DNA from: Streptomyces sp. NBC_01788
GTDB lineage: Bacteria; Actinomycetota; Actinomycetes; Streptomycetales; Streptomycetaceae
DNA: 64,000 nt
Reading direction: 5' to 3'
Assembly: GCF_035917575.1 (NCBI RefSeq)
Contig: NZ_CP109090.1
Location: forward strand, 1,860,001-1,924,000
The position numbers were made by a program, and so were the translations under genes. Below the pieces are notes generated by a model that was not told the origin of the DNA, made no database searches, and worked only from the letters and a program-made list of their open reading frames with translations. Shown here in pieces: positions 19,881 through 34,891 of the stretch. Numbering within the stretch: position 1 is the stretch's first letter; each line of letters starts with the position of its first letter.

Positions 19881-20306
19881 ATGCAGACCATACGCATCAA
19901 GTCAGTTGCGACACCGGGCACACAGCGGGCGCGGCCGGGTCCGGGGAGGGACCTGACACCGCTGCTCGCGGGCGCCGCGACGACGGCCGGGGGGATCGGC
20001 GCGCTGCTCGCGCTCACCGGCTCCGGCTCTCCACTGCGCGGCCCGCTGACGCTGTTCTTCCTGCTCGCGGCGCCGGCCGCGGCCATCGCCGCCGCGCTGC
20101 GCGGGCTGGATCCTTTCGGCCGCGCCCTCGCCTCGGTCGCGGGCGCGGTCGCCCTCGACATGCTGGTCGCCCAGGGGATGCTGGCCGTGCACCGGTGGTC
20201 CGTCGGCGGCGGACTGCTGGCCGTCACCGCGTTCTGCTCCCTCGTTCTCCTGCTGGTTCTGGTGCGGCGCGGGCACGGCCGTACGGCGAGAAGACAGGGC
20301 TCCTGA
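19881..20306 (+). CDS. Small polytopic membrane protein of the EPS cluster
   Basis: 141 residues with about four hydrophobic helices (PLLAGAATTAGGIGALLAL, LTLFFLLAAPAAAIAAALRG, ALASVAGAVALDMLVAQG, LLAVTAFCSLVLLLVLVRR). Start at 19881 follows GGGGGGC; an upstream in-frame ATG at 19749 is possible but codes for atypical residues. It ends 1 bp before the GTG of the GNAT gene, so it belongs to the same transcription unit. No family recognised; a role in assembling the extracellular polysaccharide is inferred from position only. Confidence 0.65.
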   Translation: MQTIRIKSVATPGTQRARPGPGRDLTPLLAGAATTAGGIGALLALTGSGSPLRGPLTLFFLLAAPAAAIAAALRGLDPFGRALASVAGAVALDMLVAQGMLAVHRWSVGGGLLAVTAFCSLVLLLVLVRRGHGRTARRQGS

Positions 20307-20307
20307 C

Positions 20308-21402
20308 GTGGACATCAGCGTGTACCGCCCCGGCGAGCTGACGGCCGCCGACCGGGCGGCGTGGACCGCGATGCAGTCCAAGGCTCATCTGCACGGCGCG
20401 GAGGAGCTGGCGAACCCCTTCCTGTCCCCCGAGTTCGCGCTCGCGGTGGGCCGGTGCAGACGCGGCGTGCGGATCGCGGTGATCCGCGAGGACGGCGAGC
20501 CCGCCGCGTTCTTCCCGTTCCAGAGATCGGCCACCGGCGTCGGCCGGGCCGTCGGGCTCGGCGTCTCCGACTGCCAGGGCCTGGTCCACCGGCCCGGCTT
20601 CACCTGGGACGCCCGTGAGCTGCTGCGGGCCTGCTCGCTGGCCGTCTGGGAGTTCGACCACCTGGTGGCGGGCCAGGAGCCGTTCGAGGCGGGAGCCTCC
20701 GGCACCTTCCCGTCCCCGGTCATGGACATCGACCAGGGGTACGACACCTATCTGCGCGAACTGCGGGACCGCTCCCCGAAGTTCACCCGGACCACGCTCG
20801 CCAAGGAGCGGAAGCTGGGCCGCGACGCGGGCCCGGTGCGCTACGTCCACGACGAGCGCGACCTCGCCGCACTGCGCCGGCTGATGGCCTGGAAGTCCGC
20901 CCAGTACCGGCGGACCGGGCGCAACGACCGCTTCGCTTCCGAGTGGATCAACCGCCTGGTCACGCGGCTCTTCCACACCCGCTCGGACCCCTTCGCGGGC
21001 ATTCTTTCGGTGCTGTACGCGGACGGCCGGCCGGTCGCCGCCCACTTCGGACTGCGCACCGAACGAGTGCTGGCCTGCTGGTTTCCGGCCTACGACCCGG
21101 CGTACGCGAAGTTCTCCCCAGGACTGATCCTGCATCTGCGCATGGCCGAGGCGGCTGCCGCCGACGGCATCGCGTACCTGGATCTCGGCCGGGGCCAGAA
21201 GGAGTACAAGGACTCCCTGAAGACACGCGAACTCAACGTGTCCGAAGGGTGGGTGACACGACGTCACCCGGTGGCGGTCGGACACCGGGCGCGCCGCGCC
21301 CCGGTCCGGGCGCTGCGCAACGCGGTGCTCTCGCGGCCGGAGCTGTTCGAGCCTGCGGACCGGGCTCTGAAGCGCATCGGACAAATCCGCTCCAGGCACT
21401 GA
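20308..21402 (+). CDS. FemAB/CelD-like GNAT acyltransferase (EPS cluster)
   Basis: 364 residues of the Acetyltransf_6 (BioF2/CelD) type: a large GNAT with segments AAFFPFQR, DCQGLVH, SPKFTRTTLAKERKLGR and the C-terminal YLDLGRGQKEYKDSLKTR that marks this family. Members acylate sugars or amino groups during exopolysaccharide or cellulose production. GTG start 1 bp after the previous stop. The downstream glycosyltransferase starts after a 393-bp gap with its own promoter region, so the cluster may be two transcription units. Confidence 0.85.
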   Translation: MDISVYRPGELTAADRAAWTAMQSKAHLHGAEELANPFLSPEFALAVGRCRRGVRIAVIREDGEPAAFFPFQRSATGVGRAVGLGVSDCQGLVHRPGFTWDARELLRACSLAVWEFDHLVAGQEPFEAGASGTFPSPVMDIDQGYDTYLRELRDRSPKFTRTTLAKERKLGRDAGPVRYVHDERDLAALRRLMAWKSAQYRRTGRNDRFASEWINRLVTRLFHTRSDPFAGILSVLYADGRPVAAHFGLRTERVLACWFPAYDPAYAKFSPGLILHLRMAEAAAADGIAYLDLGRGQKEYKDSLKTRELNVSEGWVTRRHPVAVGHRARRAPVRALRNAVLSRPELFEPADRALKRIGQIRSRH

Positions 21403-21795
21403 ACAGCACACACAGGGTTGCGTTACGACAAAACCAACAAAAACGTGAGACTTGGTTCCAGGTCTTGCCATACTGGTGCAATCGTCAATACCGTCGTACA
21501 TCTCACCCGCATCGGACCGTCTGCAAGCGGCTCAAGGGGAGGGCTCAGGGGCCGGGACGTTCTGGCGCGGAGCGCGGTAGGGGGGTGCCGTGCTCGGTGA
21601 CCGCAGGTGTGACCGAGCCGTGCCGCGCGACCGGCTGCCGTTCCGCGGCACGCCGGACAGCTTTGCCAGCTCACCCGGCGTGTCCGACAGAACCGTTCCG
21701 GCGCGCCCCGGGTGATCAACCCCCCTTTCGAACCGGATACACAGCCGGGCCGCCCGAGGGGCGGGCGGCCCGCCGGACGAGAGGGAACACCAGTC
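21403..21795 (+). other. Long leader/promoter region before the glycosyltransferase operon
   Basis: 393 bp without a credible gene. The first third is unusually A/T rich for this genome (ACAAAACCAACAAAAACGTG), a likely promoter area. The rest is G/C rich and leads to GACGAGAGGGAACACC, the ribosome site for the GT2 gene. A plus-strand frame from 21712 is contiguous with the GT2 gene but looks like untranslated leader. An untranslated RNA element is possible; no known riboswitch was recognised. Confidence 0.5.
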
Positions 21796-22626
21796 ATGAG
21801 TTCCGTTCTGCGCTCGCCTTCGTCGGAACAGGATCCGACGCTCGCCGCGGAATACCGGCCCATCTCCTCGCACTTGGCCATCACCCCGCCGGTGAGCGTG
21901 GTGATCCCCGCCATGAACGAGGCGGAGAACCTGCCCTACGTCTTCAAGACGCTTCCGGACTGGATCCACGAAGTGGTTCTCGTGGACGGCAACTCCACCG
22001 ACGACACCGTCGAGGTGGCACGGGAACTGTGGCCCGAGGTGAAGGTCGTCGGGCAGCGCGGCAAGGGCAAGGGGGATGCCCTGATCACCGGCTTCGAGAA
22101 GTGCACCGGCGACATCATCGTGATGGTCGACGCGGACGGATCGGCCGACGGCGGCGAAATCGTCTCCTACGTCTCCGCCCTGGTCTCGGGCGCGGACTTC
22201 GCCAAGGGCTCCCGGTTCGCCAACGGCGGCGGCACCGACGACATGACCTTCATCCGCAAGCTCGGCAACTGGGCCCTGTGCACCGTGGTCAACCGGAAGT
22301 TCGGCGCCCGCTACACCGATCTGTGCTACGGGTACAACGCGTTCTGGCGGCACTGCCTGGACAAGATCGAGCTGGACTGCACCGGCTTCGAGGTCGAGAC
22401 GCTGATGAACATCAGAGTGGTCAAGGCCGGGCTGAAGGTGCAGGAGATCCCCAGCCACGAGTACCTGCGCATCCACGGCATGAGCAATCTGCGTGCCGTG
22501 CGGGACGGGCTGCGGGTGCTGAAGGTGATCCTCGAGGAGCGCTCCAACCGGCGCGAACTGCGCCGCGAGGCGCGCCGGATCCGCCGGTCGCCGATGCTCG
22601 ACGCGGTGCGGGGAGAGGCGTCTTGA
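21796..22626 (+). CDS. Family 2 glycosyltransferase, polyprenyl-phosphate-sugar synthase type
   Basis: 276 residues. GT-A fold with VSVVIPAMNEAENLPYV, the EVVLVDGNSTDD and the metal-binding DADGS (VMVDADGSADG). Then the acceptor segment ALCTVVNRKFGARYTDLCYG, typical of dolichol-phosphate-mannose/glucose synthase-like enzymes. Likely loads a sugar from a nucleotide donor onto undecaprenyl phosphate. The ATG at 21796 with GAGAGGGA upstream was chosen over 21712. TGA overlaps the TTG of the next GT2 gene, so translation is coupled. Confidence 0.9.
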   Translation: MSSVLRSPSSEQDPTLAAEYRPISSHLAITPPVSVVIPAMNEAENLPYVFKTLPDWIHEVVLVDGNSTDDTVEVARELWPEVKVVGQRGKGKGDALITGFEKCTGDIIVMVDADGSADGGEIVSYVSALVSGADFAKGSRFANGGGTDDMTFIRKLGNWALCTVVNRKFGARYTDLCYGYNAFWRHCLDKIELDCTGFEVETLMNIRVVKAGLKVQEIPSHEYLRIHGMSNLRAVRDGLRVLKVILEERSNRRELRREARRIRRSPMLDAVRGEAS

Positions 22627-23693
22627 GCGGTCTCGGCATCTCCGTCGTGATCTGCGTCTACACCGAGGACCGCTGGGAGGACATCCTCGCGGCGGTCTCC
22701 TCGGTGCGGGCGCAGTCCCGGCCGGCCCTGGAGATCCTCCTGGTGGTGGACCACAACCCGGCACTGCTGGCGAGGCTGGCCGAGGAGTACGCGGAGGACC
22801 TGGGCGGCGGCGAGGTGCGGGTGCTCGCCAACGCCGGTCCGCGCGGCCTGTCCGCCGGCCGCAACACGGGTATCGCCGCCTCCCGCGGCGAGGTCGTCGC
22901 CTTCCTCGACGACGACGCCGTGGCCGAGCGGGACTGGCTGCGGCACTTCGCCGAGGGGTACGCGGACCCGCGCGTGATGGCGGTCGGCGGCCGGACGGTC
23001 CCGGTCTGGGCGTCGGGCCGCCGACCGGCCTGGTTCCCCGAGGAGTTCGACTGGGTGGTGGGCTGCACCTACCGCGGCCTGCCGCCGGGCCGGGTCCGGG
23101 TGCGCAACGTGCTCGGCGGCAACGCCTCCTTCCGGCGTACGGCGTTCGACGCGGCGGGCGGCTTCGCCACGGGTATCGGCCGCGACGGCGACAAGCGGCC
23201 CCTGGGCTGCGAGGAGACGGAGCTGTGCATCCGGCTCACCCGGGCCCGGCCCGACGCGGTCCTCCTGATCGACGACCGGGCGGTCATCCACCACCGGGTG
23301 CCCGAGGCACGCGAGCACTTCCGCTACTTCCGCACCCGCGTCTACGCCGAGGGCCTGTCGAAGGCACTGGTCGCGCGGAGCGTCGGCGCGGCCAAGGGCC
23401 TCGAGTCCGAGCGCCGCTACACCACCCGGGTGCTGCCCGCCGGTCTGGCCCGCGGGCTGCGGGACGCCCTGCTGGCCCGCCCTGGCGCCGCGGGCCGCGC
23501 CGGCGCGATCGTCGCCGGCGTACTCACCGCCGCGAGCGGCTACGCCGTCGGCACCGCCAGAGCCCGGCGGACCGGCACGACGTTCTCGGTGTCCTGGATC
23601 GAAGGGGCCGCACAGACCCCGCCCGGCGGAAGGACCGCGCAGGCCCCGCCCGGCGGGACGGCCGGGCGGAACGAGGAGGGATCTTCCGTATGA
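22623..23693 (+). CDS. Family 2 glycosyltransferase (EPS cluster)
   Basis: 356 residues, GT-A fold: ISVVICVYTEDRW, LLVVDHNP, the donor motif FLDDDA (VVAFLDDDAVAERDW) and the later GCEETELCIRL resembling the ED catalytic region of polysaccharide-extending transferases. The rare TTG start at 22623 overlaps the preceding TGA (TTGA). The C-terminus ends in a short tandem APPGG/TPPGG repeat that looks non-globular. Probably adds a sugar to the lipid-linked repeat unit. Next gene starts at an ATGA overlap. Confidence 0.88.
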   Translation: MSGLGISVVICVYTEDRWEDILAAVSSVRAQSRPALEILLVVDHNPALLARLAEEYAEDLGGGEVRVLANAGPRGLSAGRNTGIAASRGEVVAFLDDDAVAERDWLRHFAEGYADPRVMAVGGRTVPVWASGRRPAWFPEEFDWVVGCTYRGLPPGRVRVRNVLGGNASFRRTAFDAAGGFATGIGRDGDKRPLGCEETELCIRLTRARPDAVLLIDDRAVIHHRVPEAREHFRYFRTRVYAEGLSKALVARSVGAAKGLESERRYTTRVLPAGLARGLRDALLARPGAAGRAGAIVAGVLTAASGYAVGTARARRTGTTFSVSWIEGAAQTPPGGRTAQAPPGGTAGRNEEGSSV

Positions 23694-24508
23694 ACGGCCG
23701 TGCCGGCGTGCCCCCCGTGCCCGTGCTCATGTACCACGCGGTCTCGGCGGAGCCCAACGGGGCCACCCGGGAACTGTCCGTGACGCCGGAGGCGTTCGGG
23801 GAGCAGATGGCCGTGCTCAAGGACCGCGGCTTCCAGCCGGTCACCACGGCCCGGCTGGCAGGGCACTGGCGTGGCACCGGCCTGCCCCCGCTGCCCGCGA
23901 ACCCCGTCCTGATCACCTTCGACGACGGCTACGAGGGCGTGCACCGCTACGCCCTGCCGACGCTGGACCACTACGGCTTCCCCGCCACGCTCTTCGTCTC
24001 CACCGGCTGGATCCGCGGCGCCCACGACACCGGAGGCGGCCTGGACACCATGCTCGACTGGGACCAGGTGCGCGAACTCGCCGCCGGCGGGGTCGAGATC
24101 GGCGGGCACAGCCACACCCATCCGCAGCTCGACCAGCTCGACGACGACACCCTGTGGTCGGAGCTGATCCGCTGCAAGGAGATCGTCGCCACCGAACTCG
24201 GCTCCGTGCCGGCCTCGTTCGCCTACCCCTACGGCTACTCCAGCCACCGGGTGCGGACCCTGGTGCGGGCCGCCGGCTTCACCCAGGCCCTCGCCGTCGG
24301 CAACGACCTCGCCCGCCGGCGTCAGGGCCCGTACGCCCTGCGGCGGCTCACCGTGCGCCGCAGCACGACCACCGAGGAGTTCGAGCGGATCGTCCAGGGC
24401 CGCGCGATCACCCGCAACTTCGCCAGGGACCGCGCCCTCACCAAGGGCTACGCCATGGTCCGCAGAGCCCGACAGGTCCGCCGGAAGGCCATCCGTACCC
24501 GTGTCTGA
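23690..24508 (+). CDS. Polysaccharide deacetylase (NodB/CE4 family)
   Basis: 272 residues; no signal peptide seen, so it may act in the cytoplasm or be exported by other means. CE4 motifs: LITFDDGYEG (catalytic base and metal Asp), EIGGHSHTHPQL (two metal-binding His) and SFAYPYGYSSHRVR. Removes N- or O-acetyl groups from the polysaccharide or its lipid-linked precursor, and could oppose or refine the CelD-like GNAT upstream. Coupled to both neighbours by short overlaps (ATGA before, 8 bp after). Confidence 0.92.
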   Translation: MNGRAGVPPVPVLMYHAVSAEPNGATRELSVTPEAFGEQMAVLKDRGFQPVTTARLAGHWRGTGLPPLPANPVLITFDDGYEGVHRYALPTLDHYGFPATLFVSTGWIRGAHDTGGGLDTMLDWDQVRELAAGGVEIGGHSHTHPQLDQLDDDTLWSELIRCKEIVATELGSVPASFAYPYGYSSHRVRTLVRAAGFTQALAVGNDLARRRQGPYALRRLTVRRSTTTEEFERIVQGRAITRNFARDRALTKGYAMVRRARQVRRKAIRTRV

Positions 24509-27500
24509 CACGACCACCACCACCGAGGCATCGGCCACCGGGCCGGAGGCGCCCGAGCAGCCGGGGCGCCGTCTGCGACTGCCCGGCCGGGGCCGGTCCC
24601 CCGGCGGCAACCCGCTGTTCCGCAACGCCTACGCGCTGATGCTCAACACCGGGATCTCCGCGGTGCTGGGCCTCGGCTACTGGCTGGTCGCCGCCCGCTA
24701 CTACTCCGACGACGCCGTCGGCCAGGGCTCGGCCGCCATCGCCGCCATGAAGCTCCTCGCCGGGCTGACCGCGGTCACCCTCACCGGCGCCCTGGCCCGC
24801 TTCATCCCGATCTCCGGCCGTGCCACACGGCATCTCATCGCCCGCACGTACATGGGCAGTTCGGTGATCGTGGCGTGCGCGGCCGGGGTGTTCCTGCTCA
24901 CCCTCGACGTGTGGGGACCGTCGTACCGCTTCCTGCACGGACTCGCCCACGGTCTCGGTTTCGTCGTCGCCGTCATGGCCTGGAACCTGCTCACCCTCCA
25001 GGACGGGGTGCTGACCGGACTGCGCAGCGCGCCCTGGGTCCCGGTGGGCAACACGGCGTTCTCGGCGGTGAAACTGGCCCTGCTGGTGGGTCTGGCCGCC
25101 GCGATCCCGACGACCGGCGTCTTCGTCTCCTGGGTCGCGGCGATCGCCTTCTCCATCGTGCCGCTGGGCTGGCTGGTCTTCCGGCGCCTGGTGCCCCGGC
25201 ACGTACGGGCCACCGAGGACCACGCCCAGCCGCCGACGGCGAAGGAGCTCGGGCGGTTCCTGGCGGGCGACTACACCGGCTCCCTGTTCTCCCTCGCGGT
25301 CGTCTACCTGGTGCCGGTGATCATCGCCGCGCAGGTCAGCTCCGCCGACAACGCGTACTTCTACATCACCACCACGATCGGCGGCACGGTCAACCTGCTC
25401 GCCATCAACATGGGCGCCTCGCTGACCGTCGAGGGGTCGCACGACCCGGCCCGGCTGGCCGCCAACACCCGTGCCGCGCTGAAGCGGATGGCCCGCATCA
25501 TGCTGCCCATCTGCGGGCTGCTGTTCCTGCTGGCCCCGTACATCCTGCGCGTCTTCGGCGAGGGCTACGCCAACGCCGCCACCCCGCTGCTGCGCTGGTT
25601 CGCCGTCGGCGCGCTGCTGCGGGTCGTGATGGAGACGTACTTCGCGGTGCTGCGCGCCCAGAGCCGCACCGCCGGACTGGCCTGGCTCCAGGGCCTGTTG
25701 TGCGCGCTGGTGCTCGGTCTGACGCTGCTGCTGCTCCCCCGGATGGGGCTGACCGGCGCCGGCGTCGCGGAGATCTCCAGCCTCGCCGTGATCGTCGCGA
25801 TCGCCGCGCCGAAGCTGTACCGGACTGTCAGGCCCAGGCCCGCCGTGGGCGTCCCCGACGACACGGCACCCGACGGGGACCTCGCCGATCTGGGGGCGCG
25901 CGAGGCCCCCGCCCGGACCGCGCCGCACCGAACGCCCGCCTGGGCGCTGGAGTCCGACACCCTCGCCCTGGGAATCCACGCCGACTTCGACCACGTGGAG
26001 CGCCGCCCGGACGTACGGCCCGGACCGGGCACGCCGCCCGCCGGCACCCCCGGCCGGCCGCCGGCCGGACCGCACGGGCCGCAGGCCCTGGGGCTGCCCG
26101 TCCAGGAGCTGGGACCGGCCGGCGGACCGGAGGTGGACGCCCCGTTCGGCACGGAGGAACGTGCCGTCGTACCGGACGGGACACACACCACCGGCGATTC
26201 GGCCGACGTACCGGAGGCGGCCTCCGCGGACCGGTCCGTCGTAGAGGCGGCGGCCCCGGCTGAAGAGGCCTCGGCGGAGGAGACCGGTCTCGCCCGGGGC
26301 GGCGGCCCCGGCCTCTCCTGGCGGGAGCGGCTCGTCCCTACCCGGGCCGGTGTCCTGCTCGGCTGCCTGCTGATCACCGCGCTGCTGCTGTACTGGGTGC
26401 CCGCGCTGCGCCTGGGCGACTCCGACCTGGACCGGATGGGCGGCCTGGGCCTGATCTCGGTGCTGCCGCTGCCGACCCTGGCCGGCGCGGCGCTGCTGAC
26501 CGGGGTGTTCGCCGCGCTGCTGTGGCTGCGCCGCGAGCACCGGACGCTGCTGCTGGTCACCCTGGTCGCCACCGTCGTCTCCCTGCACGCGCTGCCCGCG
26601 GTGATCGAGAGCGCGCCGCGCTTCGCCACCGCCTGGCAGCACCTCGGTTTCATCGACTTCATCGACCGCACCGGTTCGGCCGTACCGGACCTGGACGCGC
26701 GCTGGAGCTGGCCCGGGTTCTTCGCGGTGGCCGCCCTCGTCGCCCGCGCCTGCGGTCTGAACGACTTCACCGAGGTCATCCGCTGGTGGCCGCTGACCGT
26801 CCAACTGCTCTACCTGCCCCCCATGTTCCTGCTCACCCGTTCGCTGCGGGCGAGCTGGCGGGCCAGATGGACCGGTGTGTGGATCTTCGTGCTCAGCGGC
26901 TGGGTGGGCCAGGACTACTTCTCCCCGCAGGGCTTCACCTATCTGCTGTACCTGGCGTTCGTGGCGATCCTCCTCGTCTGGTTCCGGGCGCCGCGGATGC
27001 TGTGGACCACGGCGCGGCCGGGCGAGGCGGAGGTGGAACCGGCCGACCGGCGGCAGCGGGCGGTGCTGCTCCTGGTGGTGATCGGCCTGTTCGCCGCGAG
27101 CGTCCCCGCGCACCAGCTCACCCCGTTCGTGATGCTGGGTGTGCTGGCCGTGCTGGTCCTGGTCCGCAGGTCCGAACTGCGCGGCCTGCCCGTGCTGTTC
27201 GCGGTGATGGCGGCCTTCTGGCTGGGCTTCATGGCCGAGCCGTACTGGTCGGGGCACTTCGACGAGCTGTTCGGCGGGGTCGGCGGGGTCGGCAGCAATG
27301 TCTCGACGTCCGTCTCGGGCCGCATCCAGGGCGGCGACTCGACCCACCAACTGGTGCTGTACGCACGCGTGCTGCTGGCCGGTTCCGTGATGGCAGCCGC
27401 CTGCTGGGGCTGGTGGCGGCGGCGCGAGCACAAGTACCGGGAGCGGTCGCTGCTGGTGCTCACCTTCGTGCCGTTCCTCGGCTTCGGCATGCAGTCCTAC

Positions 27501-28352
27501 GGCGGCGAGATGGCGCTGCGGGTCTTCATGTTCGCGCTGCCCGGGGCCGCGCTGCTCGCCGCGCTCGCGCTCTTCCCGCGCACCGGGGCCACCGCGGAGG
27601 AAAGGGACAAGGACCGGGTGAGCCTCGCGCCGCTGGCCGCGCTGATGGCGGGCCTGCTGCTGATGGGCGGCTTCCTGGTCGCCCGGTGGGGCAACGAGAC
27701 CTTCGAGCGGATCCGGCCCGGCGAGGTCGCGGCCATGGACTACGTGTACGCCCACGACCGGCCGACGGTGCGGCTGCTGTGGCTGAGCAACGACCCGGCC
27801 ACCAACGTCACTCCGGCCATGCCGTGGGGCGCGCGGGACATGGAGCGCGTCGACTACGTGCCCACCCTGGCGCCGGCCGACCCGGTGCTGGTCTCCGGCC
27901 TGGTCGAGTCGCTGAAGGACGCGGGGCCCAACGCGTACCTGATGATCAACCGCAGCCAGGTGACGTATCTGCGGATGGACGTGGGCTACTCGGCCGCCTG
28001 GGAGTCGCGGCTCGTGCGCAACCTCGACGACCGGCGGGAGCTGAGGAAGGTCCTCGCCAACGACGACGTGACCCTGTACGAGCTGCGCGAGCGGCCCGGC
28101 GGTCCCGTGCCCGAGCCGCATCCGGGTCCGATCGGGCCGAAGGTGACGTGGACGCCGTGGTCGGTGGCCGGCGGACTCGCGGCGCTGGCGCTGACGGTGA
28201 TGCTGACGGCCCGGGAGCTCGTCCGGGTCGCGATGCGGCCCAGTGTGCGCCGGCTGCGGTGGCTCCGGAGCAGCTTCTGGTTCTCGCTGCCGCTCCTTGC
28301 GGTGCTGTTCGCCTCGCTGGTGCAGCGGTTCCTGACACTGGGAGGCGGCTGA
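24501..28352 (+). CDS. Fused polysaccharide flippase and GT-C-like membrane glycosyltransferase (1283 aa)
   Basis: Residues about 40-445 form a Wzx/MATE-like polysaccharide transporter (NPLFRNAYALMLNTGISAVL..., LARFIPISGRATRHL, YTGSLFSLAVVYLVP, NMGASLTVEGSHDPARLA). Residues about 445-605 are a low-complexity Pro/Ala/Gly/Glu linker. Residues about 610-1283 form a second polytopic domain with WSWPGFFAVAALVARACGL, FSPQGFTYLLYLAF and a long loop YVYAHDRPTVRLLWLS, resembling GT-C enzymes that use lipid-linked sugars. Together they could flip and polymerise the repeat unit. GTG start overlaps the deacetylase by 8 bp; last gene of the operon. Flippase part is confident, GT-C assignment moderate. Confidence 0.8.
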   Translation: MSDTTTTTEASATGPEAPEQPGRRLRLPGRGRSPGGNPLFRNAYALMLNTGISAVLGLGYWLVAARYYSDDAVGQGSAAIAAMKLLAGLTAVTLTGALARFIPISGRATRHLIARTYMGSSVIVACAAGVFLLTLDVWGPSYRFLHGLAHGLGFVVAVMAWNLLTLQDGVLTGLRSAPWVPVGNTAFSAVKLALLVGLAAAIPTTGVFVSWVAAIAFSIVPLGWLVFRRLVPRHVRATEDHAQPPTAKELGRFLAGDYTGSLFSLAVVYLVPVIIAAQVSSADNAYFYITTTIGGTVNLLAINMGASLTVEGSHDPARLAANTRAALKRMARIMLPICGLLFLLAPYILRVFGEGYANAATPLLRWFAVGALLRVVMETYFAVLRAQSRTAGLAWLQGLLCALVLGLTLLLLPRMGLTGAGVAEISSLAVIVAIAAPKLYRTVRPRPAVGVPDDTAPDGDLADLGAREAPARTAPHRTPAWALESDTLALGIHADFDHVERRPDVRPGPGTPPAGTPGRPPAGPHGPQALGLPVQELGPAGGPEVDAPFGTEERAVVPDGTHTTGDSADVPEAASADRSVVEAAAPAEEASAEETGLARGGGPGLSWRERLVPTRAGVLLGCLLITALLLYWVPALRLGDSDLDRMGGLGLISVLPLPTLAGAALLTGVFAALLWLRREHRTLLLVTLVATVVSLHALPAVIESAPRFATAWQHLGFIDFIDRTGSAVPDLDARWSWPGFFAVAALVARACGLNDFTEVIRWWPLTVQLLYLPPMFLLTRSLRASWRARWTGVWIFVLSGWVGQDYFSPQGFTYLLYLAFVAILLVWFRAPRMLWTTARPGEAEVEPADRRQRAVLLLVVIGLFAASVPAHQLTPFVMLGVLAVLVLVRRSELRGLPVLFAVMAAFWLGFMAEPYWSGHFDELFGGVGGVGSNVSTSVSGRIQGGDSTHQLVLYARVLLAGSVMAAACWGWWRRREHKYRERSLLVLTFVPFLGFGMQSYGGEMALRVFMFALPGAALLAALALFPRTGATAEERDKDRVSLAPLAALMAGLLLMGGFLVARWGNETFERIRPGEVAAMDYVYAHDRPTVRLLWLSNDPATNVTPAMPWGARDMERVDYVPTLAPADPVLVSGLVESLKDAGPNAYLMINRSQVTYLRMDVGYSAAWESRLVRNLDDRRELRKVLANDDVTLYELRERPGGPVPEPHPGPIGPKVTWTPWSVAGGLAALALTVMLTARELVRVAMRPSVRRLRWLRSSFWFSLPLLAVLFASLVQRFLTLGGG

Positions 28353-28370
28353 GCACACGTCGGGTGGAGC

Positions 28371-28396
28371 GGCTGCGGCGACCTACCGCCGCAGCC
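28371..28396. terminator. Hairpin between the EPS operon and the GH39-like gene
   Basis: Perfect stem GGCTGCGGCG / CGCCGCAGCC with a 6-nt loop; its right arm overlaps the last codons of the convergent GH39-like gene. Serves both directions. Confidence 0.65.
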
Positions 28397-29777
28397 ACTT
28401 CACCTCGTACGCCTTCAGGTCGAAGCGCCTGCCGTCGACCTGCGCGCTGATCGTGCGGTTCAGGGTGTTGACCACCAGGACCGTCCGGTCGTCGGCCAGG
28501 ACGCGCACGTTGGGCACGTCGTCCGGGGCGACGGACACCGTCCTGTACCCGGTGCCCGGCGGGAACGCCCGGCCGAAGCGGGAGACCAGGTCGTGCATGG
28601 GCAGCGCCCGGCCGCCGCCGGAGGAGCCGGTCGGGGTCCACAGGCAGCCGGGGCAGTCGCCCGTGCGGTTCTCCGGGTTCCAGTAGAAGCCGGTGGAGGC
28701 ACCGCCCTTGGCCATGGCGATCAGGCCGGCGGCCTGTACGGCGACGCGGTGCGGCTCGGACCACTCCTTGCGGTCGTCGTTGCGGTCGGCGGGCTCGACG
28801 TAGTACTCGGCCCACCACAGCGGCAGTCCGCCCGTCTGCCGCCGTACCCAGCGGCCGACGTCCGTGAGCTTGTCGGTGGCGTGGAACTCGTCGGGCAGCA
28901 GGTCGTCGTCCTTGGTGTAGCTGGAGCCGTCCACGACGACGAAGTCGGCGCCCGCCTTGTGCCGGTTCCAGTAGGCGAAGGCGTCCAGGACCCGCTGGTC
29001 CATGGCTCCCCAAGGTCCGCGCAGGACGGTGGAGGCGTCCTGGTGCCGTGGGTCGACGCTGTCCATGACCAGGTACGGTCCGCCCACCATGATCTCGGGG
29101 TCGACCTGCTTGAGCGCCTTGTGGACCAGGTTGTAGAGGTCGGTGTAGCCCTCGTAGTCCCAGCGGCCCTCGGCGTTGTTCCAGAAACCCTTGAACTCGT
29201 TCCAGACGATGAAGTGGCGTACGTCCGGGTAGCGCCTGGCGACGGTCGCGGCGAGGGCCGCGTAGTCCTTGTAGTGGTCGCGGTCGGGGGCGGTCTCCAG
29301 GGCCTTCTGGCTCCAGTCGGTGTTGTCCGCGCCGGCCCGGCCGCCCTTCATCCAGTCGGGTGCACAGCACAGCGTGATCACCGGGGTCCCGCCCGAGGCG
29401 CGGACGAAGTCGATCCGCCGGTCCAGCGCCTCGAAGTCGTAACGCCCCTTGACCGGCTCGGGGTTGTCGGCGCCCCAGCCCATGATCGCCTGGTTCTGCG
29501 GGAGGCCGCCGTCCTTCGACAGCAGCGCCTCGACCCGGCCGGTCGCGGCCGCGTCGCCCTCGTCTGCGCTGAACTGGGTGTGGGTGAAGCCCCAGCCGAC
29601 GTCCGGCACGTCCGCGTTGCGCGGGGTGGCCGGTGTGCCGTGCACCCTGTCGCCGTCGCGTGTGGTGCCCTCGGTGCTCGCGCCACCTGGCAGCGTGCTG
29701 ATCAGGGCCACGAGCAGGGCCACCGCCGTCGCTCCCACGCCGAGCAGCGCGGTGAGCCGCCACCGCCCCGCCCCCAT
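28383..29777 (-). CDS. Secreted GH39-like glycoside hydrolase
   Basis: 464 residues with an N-terminal membrane/signal helix (LTALLGVGATAVALLVALIS). The (beta/alpha)8-type catalytic pair is visible as FIVWNEFKGFW (acid/base Glu) and LPLWWAEYYVEP (nucleophile Glu), as in GH39/clan A xylosidases. Mature N-terminus DVPDVGWGFTHTQFSADEG. The start at 29777 is preceded by GGGGGGAAT, a strong ribosome site; the in-frame ATG at 29801 is less well placed. Faces the EPS operon and may trim or degrade the polymer made there, as many EPS loci carry a hydrolase (inference). Confidence 0.83.
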   Translation of the reverse strand: MGAGRWRLTALLGVGATAVALLVALISTLPGGASTEGTTRDGDRVHGTPATPRNADVPDVGWGFTHTQFSADEGDAAATGRVEALLSKDGGLPQNQAIMGWGADNPEPVKGRYDFEALDRRIDFVRASGGTPVITLCCAPDWMKGGRAGADNTDWSQKALETAPDRDHYKDYAALAATVARRYPDVRHFIVWNEFKGFWNNAEGRWDYEGYTDLYNLVHKALKQVDPEIMVGGPYLVMDSVDPRHQDASTVLRGPWGAMDQRVLDAFAYWNRHKAGADFVVVDGSSYTKDDDLLPDEFHATDKLTDVGRWVRRQTGGLPLWWAEYYVEPADRNDDRKEWSEPHRVAVQAAGLIAMAKGGASTGFYWNPENRTGDCPGCLWTPTGSSGGGRALPMHDLVSRFGRAFPPGTGYRTVSVAPDDVPNVRVLADDRTVLVVNTLNRTISAQVDGRRFDLKAYEVKWLRR

Positions 29778-29941
29778 ATTCCCCCCATGACGTGTCATCA
29801 AGGACCACAGTACGGGCGGAAATCATCCGCGGGACAGGGGTGCGGCAGGCTCGGCCCACGACGGGCTCCCTCCGGGCGCCGGCACAGGACGCGCGGGGGA
29901 AACCGGGTGCGCACGGCGCCCGCGTGACAGATCATGGCGGC

Positions 29942-31036
29942 ATGTCCGCGAACCCACACGACGCTCTGCCGATCCGGCTCACCGTCGACGACTCCGACTC
30001 GCCGTCCGACGTCGTCGACGCGCTGTTCCTCGGCCGCTTCGCGACGGGCGAGCAGCCGTACTCGCACGCGGTGAACATCGACCGCGTGCGTACCGGCGCC
30101 ACCCTGCTGCCCGAGGACGCCCGGGTGCTGCGCGCGGCCCGCGACGACGACCGCAGCGCGACCCTCGCCGAGGGCGAGGGCTGGACGCTGCTGATCTCCC
30201 GGTGGAACCGGGGCGCCGACGTCACGGTCACCGCGACCAGCGCCGAGCTGGCCGCGAAGAAGCTGGAGGAGGCGACGGACGGCGCCGCGGACGAGCCGGA
30301 GCCGCAGCCGGAGAACGTGACGATGGGCTTCTGGTACGTCTCGCCCCGGCGCGGTCCACACCGCACCACCCGGCAGATCTCGGCGGGCACCTGGGACGAC
30401 GTCCGGGCGAACTACACCGCCCCGGTCGCGGACGCCATGGACCGGCTGATGAAGACGACCCCCGAGGACATCGCGGGCCGGCTGCTCCTGCTGCACGGCC
30501 CGCCCGGCACGGGCAAGACCTCGGCGCTGCGGACCCTGGCCAGGTCCTGGCGCGACTGGTGCCAGGTGGACTGCGTCCTGGACCCGGAGCGGCTGTTCAG
30601 CGACGTCGGCTACCTCATGGACATCGCCATCGGCGAGGAGGACACGGCGGGCAAGGGACGCTGGCGGCTGCTCCTGCTGGAGGACTGCGACGAGCTGATC
30701 CGCGGCGAGGCCAAGCACACGGCGGGCCAGGCGCTGTCCCGGCTGCTGAACCTCACCGACGGCCTGCTCGGCCAGGGGCGCAACGTGCTGGTGGGGGTGA
30801 CGACCAACGAGGACCTGGAGCGCCTGCACCCGGCCGTGGTCCGTCCGGGCCGGTGCCTGGCCCGCATCGAGGTGGGCCGGCTGACCCGCCGGGAGGCGGT
30901 GAGCTGGCTGGGCACCGAGGAAGGGGTGGGCCGCGACGGAGCGACCCTCGCCGAGCTGTACGCGCTGCGGCGGGGCACGTCACCGACGGCACTGCCGGAG
31001 CCGCGCGAGGGGGCCGACGCGGGTCTGTACCTGTGA
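29942..31036 (+). CDS. AAA ATPase with N-terminal DUF5925 domain
   Basis: 364 residues. The N-terminal ~150 residues (VDDSDSPSDVVDALFLGRFATGEQPYSHAV, quoted in parts) match the actinobacterial DUF5925 pattern. The C-terminal part is a classic AAA module: Walker A GPPGTGKTS at about 190, Walker B LLLLEDCDELI, sensor VGVTTNEDL and the arginine-finger region RPGRCLARIE. ATPase activity is very likely; the substrate is unknown. ATG at 29942. It stands alone with a 39-bp gap to the DUF72 gene. Confidence 0.85.
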   Translation: MSANPHDALPIRLTVDDSDSPSDVVDALFLGRFATGEQPYSHAVNIDRVRTGATLLPEDARVLRAARDDDRSATLAEGEGWTLLISRWNRGADVTVTATSAELAAKKLEEATDGAADEPEPQPENVTMGFWYVSPRRGPHRTTRQISAGTWDDVRANYTAPVADAMDRLMKTTPEDIAGRLLLLHGPPGTGKTSALRTLARSWRDWCQVDCVLDPERLFSDVGYLMDIAIGEEDTAGKGRWRLLLLEDCDELIRGEAKHTAGQALSRLLNLTDGLLGQGRNVLVGVTTNEDLERLHPAVVRPGRCLARIEVGRLTRREAVSWLGTEEGVGRDGATLAELYALRRGTSPTALPEPREGADAGLYL

Positions 31037-33801: not shown

Positions 33802-34431
33802 TCAGCCCGAGGCCACCACCGCGTACCGCTCGTCGTCCACCTCCCCGCCCCACAGCCGCGCGTCGGCCGACAGTGACTCGAGGTGGATGTGGGAGGCGAG
33901 TGGCCTAAGAAGCATGGTCAGCCGGTCCGGGGGTATGCCGACGGGGGTGAGCGTGCCCCAGACACCCTCGATCAGGACGAGCCGGCCCTCCGGCCGCAGC
34001 AACCCCTGCCAGTGCCGCAGCGCGCGGGCGGGGTCGGGCAGCGTCCACAGGACGTGCCGGACCAGGACGGCGTCGAAGCGCTGCCCGCCCACCGGCGGGT
34101 CCGCGGCGTCACCGACCAGGAACACCGCGTCGCGGCCGGCGAGCTTCGCGCGGGCCCGCTCCAGCATCGCCGGGGACAGGTCCACGCCCGTCACCCGGTG
34201 GCCCTGCTCGGCCGCGAGGAGCGACAGGCTGCCGGTACCGCAGCCGAGGTCCAGGATCTCGGCGGGGCGCCCGGGCAGCCAGCCGCGCAGCCGTTCGGCC
34301 CAGGCGGCACGCACTCCCGGGTCGCGCAGCCCGTGATCCGGTTCCTCGTCGAAGACGGCGGCCTGGGCGTCCCAGTCCACCCCGGCCCGGGCCCCGCCGT
34401 CGCCGCCGTCGGTTGTCGTATACGCACTCAT
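33802..34431 (-). CDS. SAM-dependent class I methyltransferase
   Basis: 209 residues. Motif I is ILDLGCGTGSLSLLA, followed by VTGVDLSPAMLERAR and the post-I segment FDAVLVRHVLWTLPDPARAL. The fold matches UbiE/MenG-like and small-molecule methyltransferases; the acceptor is unknown. ATG at 34431 (MSAYTTTDGG). Divergent from the 44-residue small gene. Confidence 0.88.
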   Translation of the reverse strand: MSAYTTTDGGDGGARAGVDWDAQAAVFDEEPDHGLRDPGVRAAWAERLRGWLPGRPAEILDLGCGTGSLSLLAAEQGHRVTGVDLSPAMLERARAKLAGRDAVFLVGDAADPPVGGQRFDAVLVRHVLWTLPDPARALRHWQGLLRPEGRLVLIEGVWGTLTPVGIPPDRLTMLLRPLASHIHLESLSADARLWGGEVDDERYAVVASG

Positions 34432-34522
34432 GCACCCCAGAGTGACACCGGCCACTGACATCGGAATCGTGACAGCCGACACAGACAGAACCGCACCGAT
34501 GAGCAACTCTCGCCCGAAAGGT

Positions 34523-34553
34523 CCTACCTCCGTACGAAGACGGATGCGGTAGG
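34523..34553 (+). promoter_or_regulatory. Hairpin directly upstream of the small-protein ribosome site
   Basis: CCTACC+TCCGT / ACGGA+TGC+GGTAGG: an 11-bp stem with one 3-nt bulge and a 6-nt loop. It ends 5 bp before GAAGGAGG, so it could affect initiation. Confidence 0.4.
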
Positions 34554-34570
34554 CCTCGAAGGAGGCAGCC

Positions 34571-34705
34571 ATGCGCCGAGTGACAGTGCAGAAGCCCCTG
34601 AGGAAGACGGAGACCCGCCGCGTCCGTGAGGAGGCCGACGAGCGTCCCGCCGGGCGGCCCGAGGTCCGCAAGGACATCGCGCGCACCTGGTGGCCGGAGT
34701 CATGA
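34571..34705 (+). CDS. Small charged protein, 44 aa
   Basis: Short frame MRRVTVQKPLRKTETRRVRE... ending KDIARTWWPES. A near-perfect ribosome site (GAAGGAGG, 5 nt before ATG) and high G/C third positions make it credible despite its length. It is very rich in Arg, Lys and Glu, with no hydrophobic segment, so probably soluble and perhaps nucleic-acid- or protein-binding. I think similar short proteins exist in other streptomycetes but have no function to give. Confidence 0.65.
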   Translation: MRRVTVQKPLRKTETRRVREEADERPAGRPEVRKDIARTWWPES

Positions 34706-34891
34706 CCGGCGACCGGGCCCTGAGACACGCCGACCTGAGCGCAGTCTCAGCGCTTCCTTAACGCGAGCATAAGGATCTCCCCGCACCGCCTCCGACCGGC
34801 GTTTTCGCGGTGCGTTGCGGCTAGCTTCTGATCACCCCCACGGGATTCGTCCCGACCGTGTGTCAGAACTGTCGCCCCGAGGAGTTTCCTG

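Follow-up and report, generated by a model that had tools for sequence, protein, structure and literature searches.

A probable seven-gene glycosylation island with a predicted flippase/GT-C fusion and a candidate regulatory leader RNA in Streptomyces

The window analysed here, a 64-kb stretch (bases 1860001-1924000) of the 8.27-Mb genome of Streptomyces sp. NBC_01788 (single contig, estimated completeness 100%), encompasses an island of seven genes that appears to encode an extracytoplasmic glycosylation system and that includes a conserved, structured leader RNA. On the plus strand, the island starts with memA (19881-20306) and gnatB (20308-21402), followed by a trio of overlapping genes, gt2C (21796-22626), gt2D (22623-23693) and deacE (23690-24508), and by the large gene fusF (24501-28352); gh39G, located on the minus strand (28383-29801), is convergent to fusF. 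All seven genes were found in the order, and with the facing hydrolase gene, given in an earlier, sequence-only reading of this DNA, and the overlaps described there, TTGA at gt2C/gt2D, ATGA at gt2D/deacE and 8 bp at deacE/fusF, are correct in the window. That reading overlooked the content of the 393-bp gap preceding gt2C, which houses the conserved 5' leader of the gt2C-gt2D-deacE operon (21440-21799, plus strand).

Protein families were assigned by searches of Pfam and NCBIfam, with matches considered to E 0.1, and several proteins were compared with PDB sequences. The first glycosyltransferase of the trio, gt2C, is a GT2 enzyme of the polyprenyl-phosphate-sugar synthase type (DPMS/ArnC/AglJ-like), as indicated by PDB matches to DPMS (5mlz, E 3.8e-22) and then ArnC (9hwj, E 5.4e-9), and by an NCBIfam match to AglJ (E 4.4e-40, below the cut-off). 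The second, gt2D, is an AglG-like GT2 (NCBIfam GtaseAglG, E 2.5e-66, likewise below the cut-off) that retains D96-D98 in all 83 relatives and may extend the lipid-linked sugar by one sugar. Poly-N-acetylglucosamine synthesis of the Pga/Ica kind was rejected: the PgaC/IcaA scores are 31.4 bits for gt2C and 23.3 bits for gt2D, compared to a cut-off of 422.3. The product of deacE is a CE4 polysaccharide deacetylase (PF01522, E 3.2e-27), with 6dq3 as the nearest PDB match and PgaB (3vus) as the next one. Its CE4 motifs are complete, both TFDDG (D78, D79) and the H140-H144 pair being present in 86 of 86 relatives. A simple hydropathy scan reveals neither a membrane nor a signal segment in this protein, which therefore probably acts in the cytoplasm.

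Upstream of the trio, gnatB encodes a CelD/BioF2-like GNAT acyltransferase (PF13480, E 5.1e-44), and memA encodes a small membrane protein with four transmembrane (TM) segments that has no family match above the cut-off. The latter might be remotely related to small proteins with 3-4 TM segments that are encoded close to the GT-C gene of related loci (hhalign probability 91, E 1e-6); this relationship is weak, single-sequence comparisons yielding phmmer E 1.6e-6 at best in a set of 8. Finally, gh39G, which starts either at ATG 29777 or at TTG 29801, encodes a GH39-like glycoside hydrolase (PF01229, E 8.6e-8, 31.8 bits versus a cut-off of 26) with beta-xylosidase matches in the PDB and a single N-terminal hydrophobic segment in the hydropathy scan, either a signal peptide or a membrane anchor. 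Two glutamates, E202 and E332, are retained in 80 of 80 relatives and, with the roles assigned by motif, are presumably the acid/base (within NE) and the nucleophile typical of clan GH-A. Across the island, the main catalytic residues of the enzymes are invariant among the relatives examined. The start of gh39G is overlapped by an open reading frame for a DUF5925/AAA ATPase, as listed at 29792-31036 on the plus strand; many relatives of this ATPase align only from about codon 45-50, so that the listed start may be too early.

The 1283-residue fusF protein is the most unusual component. The whole protein yields no Pfam match at E up to 0.1 and a sole, weak NCBIfam match, to TuaB (E 0.031); the N-terminal half searched alone matches PF01943 at E 0.015. 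Because family support is almost nil, assignment of the two halves required predicted structures. In these, residues ~30-450 are predicted to adopt a MOP/Wzx-type flippase fold, and residues ~605-1283, beyond a linker rich in Pro, Ala and Glu, a GT-C(A) fold that is nearest to STT3, AglB and ArnT. The top fold matches of the C-terminal half are catalytic subunits of oligosaccharyltransferases (OST), including AglB. In the fold comparison (VIA-align, Foldseek), range 3-593 of the C-half model aligns with 8age_A, with both the GT-C fold and a C-terminal globular domain present. The flippase/GT-C fusion proposed in the sequence-only reading is thus borne out by the predicted folds of both halves as a genuine fusion in a single protein. 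No relative of known structure was detected by sequence at E up to 1, using the protein and two profiles. The GT-C half contains five invariant residues (H714, D805, H871, E1003 and R1007). The signature motif of oligosaccharyltransferases is WWD(Y/X)G; no WWD motif is present in the C half of fusF, and membership in the OST family was rejected on this ground. GT-C(A) folds are found also in ArnT and in the Emb, Aft and PMT enzymes. Neither Pfam nor NCBIfam yields a polymerase-family match for fusF, although a GT-C(A) fold does not exclude polymerase action.

The organization of the island is conserved. Among the best 80 of 342 confirmed fusF relatives, all of them from Streptomyces, fusF is present in 80 loci, deacE in 79, gh39G in 78, gt2C and gt2D in 76 each, memA in 75 and gnatB in 50. 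The gaps that do not involve gnatB are confined to six loci on short contigs or at contig ends (L012, L013, L022, L030, L054 and L077); gnatB is truly absent, with both neighbouring genes present, in 25 of the 80. In the 75 loci with all five core genes, fusF and gh39G are convergent and 4-171 bp apart, and the gt2C/gt2D junction is invariably TTGA (75/75). The gt2D/deacE junction overlaps by the same four bases, in the form of ATGA in 42 of these loci, CTGA in 19, GTGA in 13 and GTAG in one. These start-stop overlaps are beyond chance. The flanking genes for a GDSL lipase, the DUF5925 AAA ATPase, a DUF402 protein and a methyltransferase are likewise syntenic, and synteny was accordingly rejected as proof of function; because it extends to these neighbours, the case for a functional unit relies on the genes occurring or missing together and on the vacant site in genomes that lack them.

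Joint presence was assessed in 101 Streptomyces genomes, which are related and hence not independent, with orthologues delimited at E<1e-130 for gt2D, E<1e-200 for the C half of fusF and E<1e-150 for gh39G, lines that were chosen after inspection of the gaps in the match lists. Orthologues of the fusF C half and of gh39G are found in the same 36 genomes, in agreement with the earlier proposal that the hydrolase is part of one functional unit. Weak or partial gh39 matches below the line are present in G016, G090, G024 and G069. The gt2D orthologue occurs in 50 genomes, 35 of which have fusF; the 36th fusF genome, G001, is 79% complete and contains fusF, gh39G and the leader, the gt2D orthologue not being in the assembly. 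The remaining 15 genomes carry gt2D without a full fusF, always with gt2C (15/15) and nearly always with deacE (13/15; in the remaining two, a contig end interrupts the locus).

All 15 of these genomes encode, elsewhere in the genome or on another contig, a distant GT-C protein (31-37% identity). Apart from these, only G061, G063 and G095 of the 101 genomes encode one, and in each of the three a second gt2D-like gene of its own is close by. The second loci are here denoted type ii, as opposed to the type i arrangement, in which trio, fusion and hydrolase are together; 12 of the 15 were read (L123-L134). All 12 encode a GT-C protein, a Wzx extended at its C terminus and a GH26-like protein (PF02156, E 5.5e-7, in the one member scanned); 11 encode an acyltransferase (54-63% identity to gnatB), 11 a deacetylase and 11 a gt2D-like GT2, and none encodes gt2C. 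The flippase and GT-C halves are separate in 7-8 of the 12. In L125, histidine-utilisation-like genes lie on the side opposite to that of a sigma factor and a DegT aminotransferase gene. Outside the sample, two genomes with the trio alone, G428 and G340, both encode the distant GT-C; of the six other genomes checked alongside, four lack both the trio and the distant GT-C, and G065 and G090, with partial fusF, reappear. The partial genes in the latter two lie at the island locus, below the orthologue lines: in G065 (E 1.7e-90), which also has a type ii locus, only the GT-C half (42%) follows the trio at L135:7287-9143, without the flippase half and without GH39; in G090 (E 8e-118) the gene is decayed and there is no leader match. 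As to whether the genes are scattered among relatives, fusion, hydrolase and trio are kept together in type i loci, but in 15 of 101 genomes the trio lacks the full fusion and the partner module is elsewhere. The type i genome G063 has a second locus as well (L120:7477-14383), with co-directional genes for separate Wzx and GT-C proteins, gt2D, a deacetylase and a GH39 relative (62%). The last of these supports the inclusion of the hydrolase in the system.

A tree of the trio with 61 rows requires 4 changes of the arrangement label when the intermediate locus L135 is left out. Counted group by group, 4 and 5 changes are needed, compared to 13.5 and 12.6 in shuffles, and at least 3 and at least 4, respectively, are forced by well-supported branches; the tree comes from a quick search, with type i rows thinned to 46 and L012, L013, L022, L030, L152 and L159 dropped for missing data. 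The type i and type ii arrangements have thus been switched at least 3 times. The site itself can be empty: in 8 of ten trio-less genomes (from 16 queried with the AAA gene, 14 of them matching), the flanking GDSL and AAA genes are only 20-315 bp apart. In the other two, remnants persist between the flanking genes, namely 62 residues of gh39G in an 802-bp gap in G016 (L144:2374-2559) and a piece of memA in a 2.8-kb gap in G031; the former is a footprint of island loss. These observations identify the island as a real multi-gene glycan unit that is gained and lost together. Across the phylum, gt2D is found at E up to 1e-40 in 19 of 346 genomes. Of these, 13 belong to genera other than Streptomyces, and in 10 of the 13 a gt2C relative is encoded within ~4 kb around gt2D.

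The leader is a block of ~360 nt with 71-90% identity in the 87 loci that match over at least 300 nt, and it is present even where memA, gnatB, fusF and the hydrolase gene are absent (L103, L104, L136-L138). At E up to 1e-8, leader matches are found in 51 of the 101 genomes, namely the 50 with gt2D plus G001, at one site each; short matches elsewhere in these genomes have E of at least 2.5e-5. A leader peptide was rejected, given that the stops are scattered in all three frames of 74 leaders and no frame is consistent. A known riboswitch was rejected as well: Rfam 15 yields zero matches on the plus strand at E up to 1 and then up to 10. The M23 RNA match on the minus strand (window 21724-21775) scores 29.8 bits against a gathering threshold of 41.2 and is the same GC-rich hairpin read backwards.

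The consensus fold of 45 leader sequences has 57 pairs, with 98.0% of cells paired. Both sides changed in 22 cells, compared to 4.1 +- 1.9 in shuffles, which do not keep relatedness, and to at most 7 with the partner slid, over which a fold derived from the same sequences is favoured. The small covariation term of RNAalifold, -1.16 of -68.3 kcal/mol, counts against the fold; a single-sequence fold has z -2.4. In the terminal hairpin (21723-21785), CCCUUUCG (21723-21730) pairs with CGAGAGGG (21778-21785) over the ribosome-binding site. All eight pairs are unvaried in 45 of 45 sequences, and because the stem is invariant, this pairing rests on conservation rather than covariation. A GGGGGG stretch (21580-21585), also invariant in 45 of 45 aligned leaders, could be the alternative partner of CCCCCC at 21720-21725. 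The island is probably under the control of this folded leader, a candidate new regulatory RNA that lies outside Rfam.

With modest confidence, only a little beyond an even chance, we interpret the island as a self-contained extracytoplasmic glycosylation system that is based on polyprenyl phosphate and handles a de-N-acetylated sugar. It would be an extended form of a three-component system and not a standard Wzx/Wzy exopolysaccharide (EPS) locus. Under this scenario, gt2C would place the first sugar on polyprenyl phosphate, the likely donor lipid, and gt2D would add a second one, both in the cytoplasm. The CE4 enzyme would then remove the N-acetyl group from the lipid-linked unit, following an ArnD-like logic, and gnatB may re-acylate the freed amine with another acyl group. 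The MOP half of fusF would flip the lipid-linked unit and the GT-C(A) half would transfer it to an external acceptor, either once, as a side group, or repeatedly, possibly assisted by memA; the secreted gh39G might trim or release the product. The structured leader, with the terminal hairpin over the ribosome-binding site, would govern expression of the trio. A DPMS/ArnC-type gt2C, an OST/ArnT-type GT-C half and a deacetylase devoid of membrane and signal segments together follow the logic of monophosphate-linked extracytoplasmic glycosylation at least as closely as that of EPS polymerisation.

Among known systems, the Arn pathway, which consists of ArnC, ArnD, a flippase and ArnT, provides a parallel. 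Arn flippases are small and EmrE-like; the island differs in having two GT2s and a MOP flippase, in a Gram-positive host that lacks lipid A. From archaeal AglJ/AglG/AglB N-glycosylation it is set apart by scores far below the NCBIfam cut-offs, the missing WWD motif and the extra deacetylase and hydrolase. Closer are the three-component systems, of which GtrA/GtrB/Gtr is described as the classical case and which include a combination of a polyprenyl-phosphoribose synthase, a MATE-family flippase and a GT-C transferase of GT136 (PMC11127046). The shared components are a polyprenyl-phosphate-sugar synthase (gt2C, judging by homology), a MOP/MATE-superfamily flippase and a GT-C(A) transferase, whereas in the island the flippase and the transferase form one polypeptide and a second cytoplasmic GT2, a CE4 deacetylase, a GNAT protein and a dedicated hydrolase are added. 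In Actinoplanes missouriensis, the imp/gimB region, likened here by description, is also an actinomycete locus with Wzx, a membrane glycosyltransferase and an adjacent hydrolase gene, but is described as having three GT4 enzymes, one GT2 and an adjacent GH5 gene (PMC12691653). The wps-3 locus of the same species shares a predicted deacetylase, a BioF2-like acetyltransferase and Wzx but additionally contains predicted Wzy and Wzz, and a strain deleted for it is described as having no phenotype (PMC12691653, PMC13390465); no flippase/GT-C fusion is apparent in the imp and wps-3 descriptions given in these two papers. Caulobacter holdfast synthesis similarly combines a deacetylase, HfsH, with a GNAT acyltransferase, HfsK, possibly acting on exposed amines, but concerns a Gram-negative adhesin, likened here by description (PMC5362036). 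As the sequence-only reading had suggested, searches of the open-licence PMC literature turned up no assignment of the locus to a known glycan. The island would thus be a variation on an established type of extracytoplasmic glycosylation, joined by a candidate new regulatory RNA.

Several observations weigh against a monophosphate-based glycosylation system. The GT-C half could equally serve as a polymerase, MOP flippases often carry diphosphate-linked oligosaccharides so that no monophosphate route is needed, and a dedicated hydrolase points to a polymer. The true absence of gnatB from 25 of 80 relatives means that acylation cannot be essential, and in G065 and G090 the fusF at the locus is partial or decayed and no full GH39 gene accompanies it. 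The alternative view, which is that of the sequence-only reading and which we regard as rather unlikely although worth consideration, is that this is a true EPS locus. The GT-C half, standing in for Wzy, would then polymerise a partly deacetylated lipid-linked unit outside the cell, and the polymer would be cut by the GH39-like enzyme, as the imp polysaccharide of Actinoplanes is described to be by the hydrolases GimA and GimB. The matching distributions of gh39G and fusF, the GH26-like gene that type ii loci carry in its stead and the PgaB/IcaB-like deacetylase all suit such a polymer, as does the description of imp, in which Wzx and an Alg6/Alg8-like membrane protein taken as Wzy are accompanied by an adjacent hydrolase gene (PMC12691653). 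However, gt2C, with which the pathway would begin, belongs to the monophosphate type, and the claim that all EPS steps except nucleotide-sugar supply are present finds no support in that form: none of the seven proteins matches a priming polyprenyl-diphospho-sugar transferase, a Wzz co-polymerase or an O-antigen-type polymerase family in Pfam or NCBIfam at E up to 0.1, the rest of the genome not having been searched for the first two.

Protein glycosylation, in a bacterial analogue of the archaeal N-glycosylation pathway (AglJ, AglG, flippase and AglB) with the GT-C half as the oligosaccharyltransferase, would account for the OST catalytic subunits, including AglB, among the top folds of the C half and for AglJ and AglG as the top NCBIfam matches of gt2C and gt2D. 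We consider it improbable, in view of the missing WWD motif, the sharing of GT-C(A) folds with ArnT, Emb, Aft and PMT enzymes and the presence of a GH39 enzyme, which would be unexpected in such a locus. It is also true that the flanks are syntenic, such that synteny alone proves little, and that shared presence in 101 related genomes is not independent per genome; both facts would fit unrelated glycan genes that merely occupy a conserved chromosomal spot and do not act together. Such a chance neighbourhood is already disfavoured, and we give it hardly any credence, because the genes are present or absent together at a site that is empty without them, the start-stop coupling is conserved and the same families are found together again, in different orders, at other loci (L120, L123-L134).

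A broader proposal can be put forward, tentatively and with somewhat less than even confidence. The GT-C(A) domain of fusF, with its invariant H714, D805, H871, E1003 and R1007, might represent an undescribed family in actinobacterial glycosylation machines, fused here to its own flippase. In Streptomyces, a cis-regulatory RNA of a new class would control these machines by alternating between two states: either CCCUUUCG hides the ribosome-binding site CGAGAGGG, or the invariant GGGGGG takes CCCCCC and frees the site; the signal could be a metabolite or a lipid-cycle state tied to the supply of envelope glycan. For Streptomyces, in which few surface glycans are genetically defined, the island offers a pathway that can be tested, with fusF as the single knockout target and the GH39 protein as the matching enzyme probe. 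The fusion fixes the pairing of flippase and transferase, which is normally guesswork, and the two alternative partner modules, GH39 and GH26, that stand in for one another with a common trio constitute a natural experiment in glycan diversification. The leader, a single-copy element that tracks gt2D in 51 of 101 genomes, is itself a candidate regulatory RNA.

Beyond the island, the window contains a methyltransferase gene at 33802-34728 on the minus strand, whose product we take to resemble S. coelicolor SCO1731. The main text of the paper on SCO1731 makes no mention of SCO1725, SCO1730, SCO1732 or SCO1733; SCO1731 itself is reported there to affect differentiation of S. coelicolor (PMC6135851).

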